Shown here one piece after another: positions 22,052 to 45,218 of a stretch of DNA of 46,373 nt. Position 1 is the first letter of the stretch. Every line of letters starts with the position of its first letter. Made by a program: the position numbers and the translations under genes. The stretch covers positions 1-46,373 of the forward strand of contig CANRCX010000001.1 in assembly GCA_947629235.1 (NCBI GenBank), in the 5' to 3' direction. The DNA is from an uncultured Bacilli bacterium. GTDB taxonomy: Bacteria > Bacillota_I > Bacilli_A > RF39 > UBA660. Under the pieces are notes generated by a model that saw nothing but the letters and a program-made list of their open reading frames with translations, did no database searches and was not told the DNA's origin.

Positions 22052-22549
22052 ATGTATTATACAAATTATGATTCAATTGTTGGTAAGTTGTTAATTGTAA
22101 GTGATGGAGAGAGTATTAATGGACTTTGGATATATGATCAAAAGTATTTTTGTTATGGATATGAATTTTCTAAATTAAAAAAAAATGATGATTTGGAAAT
22201 ATTTAAAACAACTAAAAGTTGGTTAGATAAATATTTTAAAGGTTTTAATCCTAATACTCATGAACTTAAATTAAATCCTAGTGGTACTTGTTTTCAAAAA
22301 TTAGTTTGGAGTATATTAGTAGAAATACCTTATGGTGAAGTTATGACATATGGAGAAATTTGTAAAATAATAGAAAAAAGATTAAATAAAAAAATGTCAA
22401 GTAGAGCAGTAGGTAATGCAGTAAGTCATAATAAAATATCAATTATTATTCCATGTCATAGAGTAGTAGGTAAAAATAATATAGGTGGATATGCTGGTGG
22501 AATAAATAATAAAATAAAATTATTAAATTTGGAAAAAAGTAGAAATTAG
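22052..22549 (+). CDS. ogt: Methylated-DNA--protein-cysteine methyltransferase
   Basis: A suicide repair enzyme that takes the alkyl group from O6-alkylguanine onto its own cysteine. The 165-residue protein has the active-site motif IIIPCHRVVG (C135), the helix-turn-helix arginine finger region SSRAVGNAVSHNK (about 116-128) and a PYGEVMTYGEI segment (about 93-103), all standard for MGMT/Ogt. The ATG at 22052 is chosen because TAGGTGAA precedes it; a TTG at 22016 in frame has no ribosome site. It marks the right end of the polysaccharide region and the start of an accessory stretch. Confidence 0.93.
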   Translation: MYYTNYDSIVGKLLIVSDGESINGLWIYDQKYFCYGYEFSKLKKNDDLEIFKTTKSWLDKYFKGFNPNTHELKLNPSGTCFQKLVWSILVEIPYGEVMTYGEICKIIEKRLNKKMSSRAVGNAVSHNKISIIIPCHRVVGKNNIGGYAGGINNKIKLLNLEKSRN

Positions 22550-22624
22550 ATTTAATAATTTTTTATTATGTTTTATAATATAGTAGAAATGCAAAAATAT
22601 TAAAAATAACATGGAGGTAAAATT

Positions 22625-23311
22625 ATGAATGATGAAATTGTACAATCTACAGCTAAAACAATATATAATTATAATTTAGATACAGCAATTGATATAGCAG
22701 AAATAGGTTTGGATAGTTTTTTTGATGATTCTTTATTTAAAGATTTATCAATAACAAGAACAATTTATGGGCTTGTAAAGACTGGTCTAGCAATTAGAGA
22801 AAAGTATTTTTTAAAAAAAACATTGATGTTTATTAATCAATTAAATAATAATGGGATATCTAATGAAAATTATCAACAATATAAAGAAAAATTAAAAGAT
22901 AATGATAAATATATACTTAAAGAATTAGAATATGCATTAATTATAATTGATAGATATGTAGATTATAAAAAAAATATAATTTTAGCAAATTTATATTTTA
23001 ACTATATAGATAAAAAATTTAATTGGGAACAATTTCAAGAATTATCTATAATAGTTGATAATATATTTTTAAGTGATTTAAAAGAACTTGAAAACATTTA
23101 TAATAGACAAATGTTAACAATGAATGATATTAATAATAAGATTAGCTTTAGAAGGCTTAAAACTCAAAATCTTGTAGAGAATATAGAAAACACATTAAGA
23201 TCTCCAGATGGTATGGGCATTGGATTTTACCTTAATGATTACGATTATCAAATAACTGAATTAGGTAGACTACTATTTGAATATGGATTAAATAATAATT
23301 TAAATATATAG
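22625..23311 (+). CDS. Hypothetical protein, 228 aa
   Basis: Not assigned to a named family. It is an almost wholly helical soluble protein. A Gly-containing segment near 45-65 (ITRTIYGLVKTGLAIREKYF) is followed by long amphipathic helices (about 65-190) and a C-terminal segment with GMGIGFYLNDYDYQITELGR that looks like a small winged-helix or beta end. A strong ribosome site (ATGGAGGTAAA) precedes the ATG. The gene stands alone after ogt with no downstream terminator, next to a fragment with a HEPN-like motif and an ATPase gene. Its position in an accessory stretch suggests an acquired gene. Function is unknown. Confidence 0.72.
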   Translation: MNDEIVQSTAKTIYNYNLDTAIDIAEIGLDSFFDDSLFKDLSITRTIYGLVKTGLAIREKYFLKKTLMFINQLNNNGISNENYQQYKEKLKDNDKYILKELEYALIIIDRYVDYKKNIILANLYFNYIDKKFNWEQFQELSIIVDNIFLSDLKELENIYNRQMLTMNDINNKISFRRLKTQNLVENIENTLRSPDGMGIGFYLNDYDYQITELGRLLFEYGLNNNLNI

Positions 23312-23316
23312 ATGAT

Positions 23317-23562
23317 GTGCTAAAAATATTATATGCTAATTATAATAAAGAGTATAAATGTTCTTCAGTAACTGAAAGAATAGAAGAAATAAGAAATAAG
23401 TGTGTTCATGGAGAATATAGAAAAACAGCTGAAGAAAATGATTTATATTGTATTATAGCTTTAGAAATAATAGTTTACTATTTACAGCTTAAAGATATAG
23501 GAGAAAGTAATAATGATACAAATGTAATATTATATAGAGTATTCAGAATTGCTTTGTCATAA
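23317..23562 (+). pseudogene. HEPN-like C-terminal fragment, probably truncated gene
   Basis: An 81-codon open frame from a GTG at 23317; the frame is open upstream only to a stop at 23296-23298. It has no ribosome binding site. The peptide TERIEEIRNKCVHGEY contains R-x4-H (RNKCVH), the catalytic pattern of HEPN ribonuclease domains, followed by a hydrophobic helix IIALEIIVYYLQL, as at the end of HEPN proteins. The lack of a start and the short length suggest the tail of a larger decayed gene. A genuinely short HEPN protein started by an unusual codon is the alternative. The neighbouring 22625 gene is in another frame. Confidence 0.4.
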
Positions 23563-23657
23563 GAAAATTGAAAAAAGTGATTACCAAAGTCTTAAAAATT
23601 GCTCATCACATTTATAAAACTATTGTTATATTACATGAAATAAATTACTCAATAAAT

Positions 23658-23739
23658 GGAAAAATGTGATAAAAGTGGTCAAAAATGTTGGAATTTTGTG
23701 ATAAAATTAGTTGAAAATGATGGAATTTTGTGATAACAT
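23658..23739 (+). repeat. Tandem 32-bp repeat array with built-in promoters
   Basis: Three head-to-tail units begin at 23658, 23690 and 23722, with a strict 32-bp period; the third is partial. Their common core is GGAATTTTGTGATA (units 2 and 3 exact; unit 1 reads GGAAAAATGTGATA). Units 2 and 3 each contain promoter-like boxes with an extended TGA: TCAAAA (23679-23684) to TAAAAT (23702-23707), and TTGAAA (23711-23716) to TAACAT (23734-23739), both with 17-bp spacing. The array ends 21 bp before the ATPase ATG. Confidence 0.7.
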
Positions 23740-23759
23740 TAATAATAGGGTGAATAGTA

Positions 23760-25103
23760 ATGGTTAGATTGAAGAGAAAAATAGATTCATTTTTAATAGA
23801 ATGGAAAAATTCAAAAGATAAAATGCCACTAATTGTTAGGGGTGCAAGACAGATAGGTAAAACTGATGCAATAGAAAATTTTGCAAAAAATAATTATAAA
23901 TATGTTGTTGAAATTAATTTTGCATTACAAAAAGAATATAAAACTATATTTGATGATGGATTTGAAGTTGACACAATAATTAATAATATTTCTATTATCA
24001 ATAATGATATTAAATTTGTGCCAAATGAAACTTTAATTTTTTTTGATGAATTACAAGATTGTATAAATTGTGCAACTTCTTTAAAATCATTTAATCTTGA
24101 TAAAAGATATGATGTTATTTGTTCTGGATCCATGATGGGAATAAATTATAAAGAAATTGAATCAAATAGTGTTGGAAACAAACAAGATTATATAATGCAT
24201 TCTATGGATTTTGAAGAATTTTTGTGGGCAAAAGGATATAAAGAAGAACAAATAGAAGGTTTATATAAATGTATGTATAATGTAAAACCATTGACTACTA
24301 CACAATATGATGTCATGAATCGTAATTTTAAAGATTATATGATTTTAGGTGGAATGCCTGCAATTGTTGCAAAATTTATTGAAAACAAAAATTTTAGTGG
24401 AATATTAACAATGCAAGAACAAATATTAAAAGATTATGAAGAAGATATATCTAAATATGCAGAAGGATTAGATAAAGCTAGAATTTTAAATGCTTATAGG
24501 AAAGTATCAACTTTTTTAGGTAATGAAAATAAAAAATTTATGATATCTAAAATTTCTGATGGAGCAAGGAATCGAGAATATGTTGGAGTTTCTGATTGGT
24601 TGTCTGATGCTGGAATAATAAATATTTCATATTGTTTAGAAGAATGCTCCTTACCACTTAAAGGAAATTATAATCCTGATAATTATAGATTATATTTTGC
24701 AGATACCGGAATGCTCATTGCTTCACTTGATGATGAAGTACAAGATGATTTAAGAAAAAATCAAAATTTTAATACATATAAAGGTGCTATTTATGAAAAT
24801 ATAGTAGCAGATATGTTAGTTAAATCTGGATATAAATTATATTTTTATAAAAATGAAAAAGGAACAATTGAAATGGATTTTTTCATACGAGATGCAAATT
24901 CATTAATTCCAGTTGAAGTTAAAGCAAATGATAATTCAACAATATCATTAAATAATTTAATAGATGGTAAACAATTTAAAGATATAAAATATGGAATTAA
25001 ATTATGCAATAAGAATATTGGATTTAATGGAAAATTTTACACATTTCCTTATTTTATGACATTCTTTTTAAAAAGATTTTTAAGTGAAAAAAATAATTTA
25101 TAA
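23760..25103 (+). CDS. AAA_14 / DUF4143 ATPase
   Basis: A COG1373-type ATP-binding protein of 447 residues, a family spread in many bacteria, often in several copies, with unknown cellular role. The P-loop is VRGARQIGKTD (about 26-36), with alanine where many members have proline. Walker B is LIFFDELQD (about 92-100). The sensor region is VICSGSMMG. The DUF4143 half follows (about 190-440). Its GAIYENIVADMLVKSGYKLY segment and IEMDFFIRDANSLIPVEVKA form a PD-(D/E)xK-like pattern that may be nuclease-derived. GGGTGA precedes the ATG. The gene lies directly behind the tandem promoter repeats. Confidence 0.88.
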   Translation: MVRLKRKIDSFLIEWKNSKDKMPLIVRGARQIGKTDAIENFAKNNYKYVVEINFALQKEYKTIFDDGFEVDTIINNISIINNDIKFVPNETLIFFDELQDCINCATSLKSFNLDKRYDVICSGSMMGINYKEIESNSVGNKQDYIMHSMDFEEFLWAKGYKEEQIEGLYKCMYNVKPLTTTQYDVMNRNFKDYMILGGMPAIVAKFIENKNFSGILTMQEQILKDYEEDISKYAEGLDKARILNAYRKVSTFLGNENKKFMISKISDGARNREYVGVSDWLSDAGIINISYCLEECSLPLKGNYNPDNYRLYFADTGMLIASLDDEVQDDLRKNQNFNTYKGAIYENIVADMLVKSGYKLYFYKNEKGTIEMDFFIRDANSLIPVEVKANDNSTISLNNLIDGKQFKDIKYGIKLCNKNIGFNGKFYTFPYFMTFFLKRFLSEKNNL

Positions 25104-25126
25104 CTTTTATTAATGGAGGCATACTT

Positions 25127-26260
25127 ATGACAGCTTCAAAAATGGACTATTTAATTGAAATATTAAATAATCATACTTATAATCCAATAAGTTATGATAT
25201 TTTCGTAAAAGAAAAAGTAGAAGAATTATATAGATTGCTTGATAAGATTAAACCATTATCGGAAGATGAATATAAAATATTATATTTTAGTATACCAAAA
25301 GGCAATATTAAAGAATATGATGATTATGAAGAATATCCAGATGAAATTTATTGGTATAAAATGGTAACTTCTAGATATAAAAATTATTATACAATATCTA
25401 TTAATTCTAAAAATGTATTATATGCTGATATGAATAAAGAAAATTCTTTTAAAAATTATCAATTACAGGAATTATTGGATTTTTTAATAATTAAAGTAAA
25501 AGAGTGTATTGTGATGCTTGAAAATGGAACTTATAATGAATATATAAATAATAATTATTCTTATAAGAATAGATTTGGAGTTATAAAAAGAAGTAAATAT
25601 TGGCAACTATATCCTGAAATTAAAGAAGATTTATTAAATAGAATATCAGAAAAAGAAATTAATTATTTTATAGAAACTGCAAAGGATGAAGTTAATAATA
25701 GAATAAATAATATGACATCTGGTAAATATTTTGAATGTTTAAGTAAAGTATATAAAAATATAGGTTATGATATAAATAATTTAACAAATAAAGAATTATA
25801 TTTAAAATATTCAGATGGTAGAGATGATGGATTAAGTGAAATAGATGAAAATAGTAGTGATGAATTTGATAAATGGTATAATGACAATAAAAAATGTGGA
25901 CATCCTTGGGAAATAATAAGTGGTCATTCATTTTCAAGAGTTAATTTACAAGTTTGTAAAGATGAAAAAGGTTATTATTTATTTCTTGATGGTAGTAAAC
26001 TTATAAGAAAAATTGAAATTGTTAAAATATTTAATATTCTTAACGAAAATAATATTTCTGTAAAAATATATGATGTAGAGAAAGTAAAAAATGCATTTAA
26101 TGGTTCTGATTATTTAGGAATAGTTCCAAATGAGATTGTACCAATTGAGTGTGGCGGATATTTTAACAAATATAAGCCAACAGAGTTTATACATTTAGAT
26201 GACTCTAAAATATATAAATTTATTAAGTGGGAACCATTAGAAAATATAGAATTAAAATAG
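25127..26260 (+). CDS. Hypothetical protein, 377 aa
   Basis: Not recognised. The soluble acidic protein has no membrane segment. It begins with helical sequence (1-110), continues with a central region rich in Tyr, Asn and Glu (130-250) and ends with a more conserved-looking part. The ending contains KKCGHPWEIISGHSFSRVNL (about 256-275) and then a probable beta-rich stretch, GYYLFLDGSKLIRKIEIVKI. The His-rich GHPWEIISGHS segment could be a metal or catalytic site, but that is a guess. ATGGAGG stands before the ATG, 23 nt after the ATPase stop, so the two are probably co-transcribed from the repeat-array promoters. Confidence 0.72.
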   Translation: MTASKMDYLIEILNNHTYNPISYDIFVKEKVEELYRLLDKIKPLSEDEYKILYFSIPKGNIKEYDDYEEYPDEIYWYKMVTSRYKNYYTISINSKNVLYADMNKENSFKNYQLQELLDFLIIKVKECIVMLENGTYNEYINNNYSYKNRFGVIKRSKYWQLYPEIKEDLLNRISEKEINYFIETAKDEVNNRINNMTSGKYFECLSKVYKNIGYDINNLTNKELYLKYSDGRDDGLSEIDENSSDEFDKWYNDNKKCGHPWEIISGHSFSRVNLQVCKDEKGYYLFLDGSKLIRKIEIVKIFNILNENNISVKIYDVEKVKNAFNGSDYLGIVPNEIVPIECGGYFNKYKPTEFIHLDDSKIYKFIKWEPLENIELK

Positions 26261-42603: not shown

Positions 42604-42735
42604 ATGAATAATAATAACATGAATAACATGAACAATATGAATGGAATGAACAACATGAATAACATGAATAATATGAATAACATGAATAATATGAACAACA
42701 TGAATGGAATGAACAACACGAACAACATGAATAAT
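42604..42735 (+). repeat. In-frame 9-bp tandem repeat (Met-Asn-Asn codons)
   Basis: About 14 copies of a nine-base unit (ATGAATAAC and close variants), two with a Gly codon and one with ATG changed to ACG. Length changes of nine bases would keep the frame. Confidence 0.85.
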
Positions 42736-43609: not shown

Positions 43610-44629
43610 GTGATAGGTAGTAGACAAAAAGAATTACTAAAAGAAATAGTTCTAGAATATATTAAAACTGCTAGACCTGTTGGTAGTAAATCTTTATGTA
43701 AGAAATTTAAATGTTCAAGTGCAACTATTAGAAATGATATGGCAGAACTTGAAAGTTTAGGTTATTTAGAAAAAACACATATATCTTCAGGAAGGATTCC
43801 ATCAGAAGAAGGCTATAGATATTATGTTGATAACTTAATGGAACCTAAAAAGATAAGTGGAGAAGATATGCTTAGACTTCAAACTGTATTTAACAATAAA
43901 GAATTAGAGTTAAATGACGCGATAAGCAAAAGTTTAGAAATCATAAGTGATATCACTAATTATACTTCAGTTATTTTAGGTAAAGAGTCAAGTGATAACA
44001 AACTACAAAAAGTAGAAGTTGTGCCAATTAATGAAAGACAATTAATAGCAATTGTTATAACAAATACTGGTCATGTAGAAAATAAAACTGTTATGCTTGA
44101 TGAAGCAATTCCAACAGAAGAAATTGCTAAAACTACTGAGTTATTAAATAAAATGCTTATAGGGACGCCTATAGATGAAGTTCCAAGTAAACTAGAATTT
44201 GATATAAAACCTATTATTAGGAATTATATTAAAAATTATGAAGTTGTATATAATGCATTTTATAATGCACTTAGTAACTTTACTAGTGAAAGGGATGTTA
44301 AATTTACAGGTAAAGCTAATATATTAAAACAACCGGAATTTTCAACAGTTGATGATGTTAAAAACATTATAAGTAAATTTGAAAGCAAAGATATGGTGAG
44401 TAAAATTGAAGAAACTGGTGATGAGGTTAAGGTATATATTGGTCGCGAAAGTGAAATTGATGATAACGTAACAATAGTTAAAACAAAATATAAAGTAGCT
44501 GGAAGAGAAGGTACAATAGCAATCATTGGACCTAAAAGAATGGAATATGAAAGAGTTATCAATATGCTTGAATATTTAAAAGAACATATTGAAAACAAAG
44601 GAAAGGAAGATGAACTTGAAGAAAAATAA
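43610..44629 (+). CDS. hrcA: Heat-inducible transcription repressor HrcA
   Basis: Represses the heat-shock operons by binding CIRCE. The 339-residue protein has an N-terminal winged helix (IGSRQKELLKEIVLEYIKT, then the recognition region CSSATIRNDMAELESLGYLE at about 34-53, followed by SGRIPSEEGYRYYVD). A dimerisation and inserted dimerising domain completes it. The GTG at 43610 is chosen because AAGGAGG ends 6 nt upstream; a GTG at 43589 in the same frame lies within the operator. It is the first gene of hrcA-grpE-dnaK and is overlapped by grpE by 20 nt. Confidence 0.94.
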   Translation: MIGSRQKELLKEIVLEYIKTARPVGSKSLCKKFKCSSATIRNDMAELESLGYLEKTHISSGRIPSEEGYRYYVDNLMEPKKISGEDMLRLQTVFNNKELELNDAISKSLEIISDITNYTSVILGKESSDNKLQKVEVVPINERQLIAIVITNTGHVENKTVMLDEAIPTEEIAKTTELLNKMLIGTPIDEVPSKLEFDIKPIIRNYIKNYEVVYNAFYNALSNFTSERDVKFTGKANILKQPEFSTVDDVKNIISKFESKDMVSKIEETGDEVKVYIGRESEIDDNVTIVKTKYKVAGREGTIAIIGPKRMEYERVINMLEYLKEHIENKGKEDELEEK

Positions 44630-45218
44630 TAAAGAAACTAAAGAAGTTAAAGAAGAAAAAATAAATAAAAAAGAAGAAGTTAAAGAAGAAAAAGTAACAG
44701 AAGAATCTAGTTGTGGTGGATCTTGTGAAGGATGTGCTGGTTGTGGTGGAAGTATTGATCCAGAAACAATGGTACAAATCTTAACAGCAAGAAACCAAGA
44801 ATTAGAAGATAAATATATGCGTTTACAAGCTGAATATTTAAACTTTAAAACTAGAACTCAAAGTGAAGTTAGTAGAATGCTTCAATATGAAGGAGAAGAC
44901 TTCATTAAAGAAATTCTAGTAATTAAAGATAATTTTGAAAGAGCAATTATGATGGATGATAATGACTTAAGTGATGAAGTTAGTAAATTCTTAAGCGGAT
45001 TTAAAATGATACTAGGAAATTTAACTAATTTACTTGATAAATTTGAAGTAAAAGAAGTAGATTGCTTAGGGCTTGAATTTGATCCACATGTAGCAGAAGC
45101 AGTACTAACTGAACATGATGAAAATAAGCCTGAAAATGTTGTTCTTGAAGTATTAACTAAAGGTTATAAATATAAAGATAAATTAATTAGACCAGCAATG
45201 GTTAAAGTGAATAAATAA
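44610..45218 (+). CDS. grpE: GrpE nucleotide exchange factor with Cys cluster
   Basis: Exchanges ADP for ATP on DnaK. The 202-residue protein has a charged Lys/Glu N-terminus (1-32). A glycine-cysteine cluster with C35, C39, C42 and C45 (spacing C-x3-C-x2-C-x2-C) follows, then the long coiled-coil helix (about 53-100; TARNQELEDKYMRLQAEYLN). The beta domain closes it: VDCLGLEFDPHVAEAVLTEH and the GYKYKDKLIRPAMVKVN end. The ATG at 44610 is chosen because GGAAAGGA is just upstream. The cluster is not part of usual GrpE proteins and could bind a metal or sense redox or heat stress; this is inference. Confidence 0.94.
   Translation: MNLKKNNKETKEVKEEKINKKEEVKEEKVTEESSCGGSCEGCAGCGGSIDPETMVQILTARNQELEDKYMRLQAEYLNFKTRTQSEVSRMLQYEGEDFIKEILVIKDNFERAIMMDDNDLSDEVSKFLSGFKMILGNLTNLLDKFEVKEVDCLGLEFDPHVAEAVLTEHDENKPENVVLEVLTKGYKYKDKLIRPAMVKVNK

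Follow-up and report, generated by a model that had tools for sequence, protein, structure and literature searches.

Organization of the locus

The DNA analysed here, referred to as the window, is a 46 373-nucleotide stretch from an uncultured Bacilli bacterium (GTDB lineage Bacteria; Bacillota_I; Bacilli_A; RF39; UBA660), comprising positions 1–46 373 of contig CANRCX010000001.1 (assembly GCA_947629235.1). It contains three direct repeat units with an exact pitch of 32 bp (23657–23752) upstream of an open reading frame (ORF) encoding an AAA_14–DUF4143 ATPase; the array ends 7 bp 5′ of the ATG at 23760. We favour, with a probability of roughly two in three, the reading that the array is the cognate site of this ATPase, which would bind it and regulate its own gene through the promoter, and that array and ORF together constitute a mobile one-gene cassette. 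The features of the locus are as follows.

23657–23688, + strand: array unit 1, core TGGAAAAATGTGATAAAA; left edge of the cassette (repeat analysis; edge by pairwise comparison)
23689–23720, + strand: array unit 2, core TGGAATTTTGTGATAAAA, with the −35 box TTGAAA in its 3′ part (repeat analysis)
23721–23752, + strand: array unit 3, core TGGAATTTTGTGATAACA, with a degenerate 3′ half, containing the extended −10 box (repeat analysis)
23711–23739, + strand: predicted promoter, TTGAAA (23711–23716), 17-bp spacer and TGA-TAACAT (−10 at 23734–23739), by consensus match only
23747–23753, + strand: ribosome-binding-site-like AGGGTGA, 6 bp 5′ of the ATG (read from the sequence)
23760–25103, + strand: ATPase–nuclease of 447 residues; right edge of the cassette at its stop codon

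Pairwise identities between the units are 24/32, 22/32 and 18/32, rising to 15/18, 17/18 and 14/18 over the first 18 bp. Tandem Repeats Finder reports a period of 32 with a score of 109. When the 200-bp upstream region was shuffled 2000 times (first-order), no shuffle reached the array score, and only three of 462 windows across the 46 kb did so, namely the array itself and two covering a 9-bp repeat located at 42.6 kb. The strict three-unit array described in a first-pass annotation of this DNA is thus real, although the span given there (23658–23739) begins one base late and omits the end of unit 3. The extended −10 and −35-like boxes spaced by 17 bp that it assigned to units 2 and 3 are present as consensus matches, the unit 2 pair (TCAAAA, 17 bp, TAAAAT) being weaker than the unit 3 pair listed above. 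No RNA element in Rfam matched at 22500–25300. The unit core recurs in inverted orientation (ATCACATTT) at 23605–23625, ∼50 bp 5′ of the array; this element is also found in genome G014 but not in G011.

The ATPase–nuclease

The protein scores above the Pfam gathering thresholds for AAA_14 (residues 22–155, 73.7 bits) and DUF4143 (residues 227–390, 101.2 bits) and matches the whole-protein PADLOC profile PDC-S01 over residues 4–440 with an E value of 1.6e-147. PDC-S01 denotes an ATPase fused to a PD-(D/E)XK domain and reportedly ranks fourth in frequency among the defence systems of prokaryotes, while most PDCs, as candidates, are said still to await experimental validation (PMC12988326). In Thermus, an AAA_14–DUF4143 gene is upregulated 6.6-fold with plasmid in Ago-positive cells, a response of unclear meaning (PMC4406477).

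A sequence search for a homologue of solved structure found none, and fold comparison used a predicted model of the homologue L083 (pLDDT 79). The matches include 2qen (Z = 14.7 for 263 residues), CED-4 (Z = 14.4) and 2fna (Z = 13.7), and the family is accordingly predicted to adopt the fold of STAND/archaeal ATPases with helical and winged-helix domains. The top matches to the C-terminal domain of the model are mostly PD-(D/E)XK nucleases with moderate scores (Can2, Z = 8.1; McrC, Z = 7.8). The corresponding residues of the window protein are Glu346, Glu371, Asp373, Glu386 and Lys388, and both these and the Walker-type residues are invariant across nine diverse homologues. Fold and residues together suggest a nuclease-like C-terminal domain, with putative DNA-cleavage activity.

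Arrays upstream of homologues

The exact core GGAATTTTGTGATA is rare in relatives (two cores 32 bp apart occur in 12 of 385 genomes and the reversed pattern in none), and tandem units of other sequences lie upstream of homologues at 67–90% and also at 28–47% identity. Homologues were found by protein search, and their upstream regions were then read and scored against first-order shuffles at the 99% level with 46 periods scanned. The first-pass annotation would have been refuted by a lack of such repeats upstream of any homologue; the comparison clearly showed the opposite, with significant arrays in 48 of 74 upstream regions from the same order, all 48 with a period of 32 or 33. A separate set of 86 loci covered many phyla: most came from other bacteria, and seven viral contigs and one named archaeon were included. 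Of these loci 39 pass, and the period is 32 or 33 in 38 of the 39. Other ORFs of this set, serving as a control, pass in 20 of 558 cases with scattered periods; six of these 20 are at 32/33, some of them possibly owing to neighbouring ATPases. The pitch of roughly three turns of the helix, pointed out in the first-pass annotation, is therefore kept, at 32/33 bp, across phyla.

Similar units precede homologues on Vibrio, Acinetobacter, Segatella and Collinsella replicons, and E. coli has a homologue in only four near-identical strains, with two units each. The commonest unit number is three (53 of 81), and it differs between Vibrio plasmids (three versus one). Evenly spaced arrays of about three copies usually precede this ATPase–nuclease family in bacteria and in at least one archaeon.

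A second DUF4143 ATPase of the same genome (L100), likewise a match to PDC-S01, is preceded by units of 23 bp; own-genome counts rest on searches. Within the L100 subfamily 23 of 29 upstream regions pass, 20 of these at period 23 and the others at 44, 46 and 48. With 32/33 bp in the window's subfamily and 23 bp in that of L100, the pitch is a subfamily trait.

More complex arrangements were also encountered. At L139, three different arrays (23, 33 and 32 bp) stand in a row 3′ of the ATPase, none of them directly 5′ of an ATPase in that stretch. Two different 33-bp arrays lie back to back 5′ of the ATPase at L156, and at L039 and L070 (G225) a further repeat, CTACAAATAACCGAATGAAAA, resembling units of the 23-bp subfamily, lies 5′ of the array.

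Cassette boundaries, empty sites and solo arrays

The extent of the shared sequence was assessed in 14 non-allelic pairs of copies (79–97% identity). In nine pairs the left edge falls close to the first repeat (−101 to −123); in the other five, left-hand similarity is already lost within the array or the ORF (L033/L040 just inside the ORF). For every pair (14/14), at least one of the two copies has its right edge no more than 26 nt from the stop codon. Between allelic copies, similarity runs past the cassette edges.

At close range, G294 carries a cassette after uvrC, and both flanks are joined in its congeners G427 and G024. A joined-flank search over the family, in which most entries matched one flank only, gave one further empty site, and both sites show the same edges as the pairwise comparison. 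In G428 this end of uvrC is occupied by a different cassette, accompanied by an apparent imperfect duplication of ∼13 nt, and a single flank duplication of 46 bp was found (L016; G240), G240 also having a resident mixed array beside the cassette. On Bacteroides plasmids, homology ends ∼13 nt 5′ of the array and resumes 6 nt 3′ of the stop codon, with the cassette replacing other genes. Solo arrays lacking an ATPase occupy sites that are filled in relatives in G116 and in G092 (where the contig stretch ends soon after) and also occur elsewhere; they mark sites that have lost the ATPase. At L051, two units are fused to the last 43 codons of the ATPase. No empty site was found among the four E. 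coli strains, and none for the window's own insertion, for which the MGMT gene and the downstream gene are present in too few congeners. As a pattern within the window's subfamily, with copies at unrelated sites, the mobile cassette is well supported. At L007 (G011), the MGMT gene runs at its 3′ end into the array at a match to TTGGAAAAA, and the intervening genes of the window are missing there.

These boundaries bear on the main alternative, in which the array is only the autoregulatory operator of a phage-defence ATPase–nuclease whose gene, having no dedicated mechanism, is spread by ordinary horizontal transfer. Such an account agrees with the PADLOC classification of the protein as a defence candidate (PMC12988326), with the occurrence of homologues on plasmids and in islands, with the precedent of RptR, for which three direct repeats form a repressor operator in a defence island (PMC12255303), and with arrays that adjoin or overlap predicted promoters in many members. 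However, ordinary transfer should bring flanks of random length, and the edges are sharp: copies up to 97% identical have nothing in common outside the stretch bounded roughly by the first repeat and the stop codon, the empty sites have the same edges and solo arrays persist. We regard this alternative as possible but doubtful.

Promoter position and proposed regulation

Most relatives (68 of 91) have their best predicted promoter 3′ of the array. In the window's group the −10 box falls inside the last unit, while in other groups the array ends a few bases 5′ of the −35 box. The idea advanced in the first-pass annotation, by which the count of start points would depend on that of the repeats, is not supported by this comparison, in which, moreover, a −10 box in the last unit is confined to some groups. 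Given the prevailing promoter position 3′ of the array, it is improbable that the units act as alternative promoters and determine expression by their number, even though the boxes at 17 bp in units 2 and 3 of the window would fit. The accompanying suggestion of self-repressing control fares better in part: since the array follows the ATPase (see below) and in many members overlaps or adjoins the predicted promoter, self-control is plausible, whereas repression is one form that it might take. We consider self-regulation of the ATPase gene through the array to be likely, with its presumed sign and mechanism discussed below.

Unit anatomy and coupling to the protein

Each unit consists of a conserved block of ∼18 bp and a diverged spacer of 14–15 bp. 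Agreement among all three units is 0.79 in the best 18 bp and 0.29 outside, compared with 0.72 and 0.44 for random placement. The block sequence is hypervariable between ATPase families and lineages, and the blocks of two ATPases resemble each other only above ∼50–60% protein identity. Array similarity equals the background (0.68) below 50% protein identity and reaches 0.95 above 95% (Mantel r = 0.41, 0/999 permutations), and that between different ATPases within one genome (0.688, n = 8) is at the background of 0.683. The array sequence thus tracks the ATPase and not the host genome, which favours recognition by the ATPase over a host factor. The two are inherited together as a pair coupled in sequence, with a pitch particular to each family, and the ATPase-coupled array is well supported family-wide. 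The core has switched between GGAA and TTTCTA at least twice on the tree; Lys369 and Lys266 accompany both origins of TTTCTA-type arrays (two of 14 diagnostic columns; 0–2 in other proteins).

That the repeats are sites for a host transcription factor would account for the promoter-like boxes within or beside the array, but this is very improbable given that arrays are unrelated between different ATPases of the same genome and shared between related ATPases of different genomes. A functionless recent tandem duplication or a chance repeat, of the short kind frequent in AT-rich DNA, is hardly credible with a period constant at 32/33 or 23 across phyla despite spacer divergence. A CRISPR-like reading was set aside without a dedicated test, there being about three units and the window's array lying directly 5′ of the ATPase.

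Proposed mechanism

In the favoured reading of a cognate site within a mobile cassette, the winged-helix STAND-type ATPase would contact a single block in each unit, always from nearly the same side of the helix, and would assemble across all three. Since array and promoter of the gene overlap or adjoin, the bound array would set expression of the ATPase itself, most simply by repression. The array would also mark the 5′ end of the mobile unit. Movement might be driven by the ATPase itself, or another agent might carry array and gene together.

Several observations weigh against this reading. The cassette edges were compared within the window's own subfamily, and the second empty site (G166 versus G094) is more diverged, with 72% identity. 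Target-site duplication is not general (91 sites, mean 7.6 compared with a null of 6.9), and a unit-like site at the right end, sought on both strands, gains only +0.36 of 18 matches. The single ORF holds only AAA_14 and DUF4143, and no known transposase or recombinase domain was found in it. A significant array was not found for about one third of the homologues in the same order and more than half elsewhere; in these the array has perhaps decayed or is too diverged. Residues 369 and 266 are weak, no more than suggestive, candidates for specificity determinants, because of the background rate of such matches. Finally, promoter placement varies by group, so that array position alone cannot distinguish repression from activation.

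We tentatively suggest, as a more speculative idea that may well prove wrong, a new class of minimal mobile element consisting of one gene, whose STAND-type ATPase–nuclease product would bind a private array of about three sites, regulate itself through it and move array and gene together, possibly guided by resident arrays. If so, much of the PDC-S01 count would represent such elements. The array found in cis on a large share of PDC-S01 genes offers a way to learn what the protein recognises, as each member's candidate binding site is readable in its genome, and it raises the question of whether PDC-S01 counts measure immunity or one-gene mobile elements. The hypervariable core, the 23-bp sister subfamily and the array and ORF as a mobile cassette go beyond the first-pass annotation, and the open-licence literature on DUF4143, COG1373 and PDC-S01 yielded no earlier description of the array or the cassette.

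Comparison with known systems

The iterons of plasmid and archaeal origins are direct repeats of fixed pitch beside the gene of an initiator-like winged-helix ATPase, which they serve to self-regulate. The present arrays resemble them in that same-orientation repeats of fixed pitch adjoin the gene of a putative DNA-binding ATPase that would regulate itself; they differ in being mostly chromosomal, in the nuclease domain, in the hypervariable repeat sequence and in showing no origin features, for which no directed search was made. Insertion sequences have one gene, sharp borders and empty sites, all of which are seen here; unlike them, the cassette has no known transposase, no general target duplication and no clear matching right-end site.

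Both the window protein and its paralogue match the PADLOC models for PDC-S01, with ATPase and PD-(D/E)XK domains as described (PMC12988326); an array in cis or cassette borders are not mentioned in the literature found, and phage protection by the window protein has candidate status. The nearest functional parallel for an operator is RptR from a defence island of E. coli (PMC12255303). There the small repressor is a protein in its own right, and its 9-bp repeats have one conserved sequence containing a TAGCTA palindrome, between 58 and 31 bp 5′ of the start codon, whereas the arrays described here have ∼18-bp blocks at a pitch of 32/33 or 23 bp and a sequence specific to each ATPase family. 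The TAGCTA palindrome is not present in 23657–23752.

Other features of the window

The strongest tandem repeat of the window is a 9-bp unit (AATAACATG) present in 13.6 copies at 42613–42734. A period-33 repeat of 2.9 copies at 44607–44702 is AAGAAG-rich and coding in appearance. Downstream of the ATPase, 25127–26260 holds an ORF of 377 residues without a Pfam match, which is found in only three of 18 genomes of the genus, exactly those with the same ATPase and array at that place.
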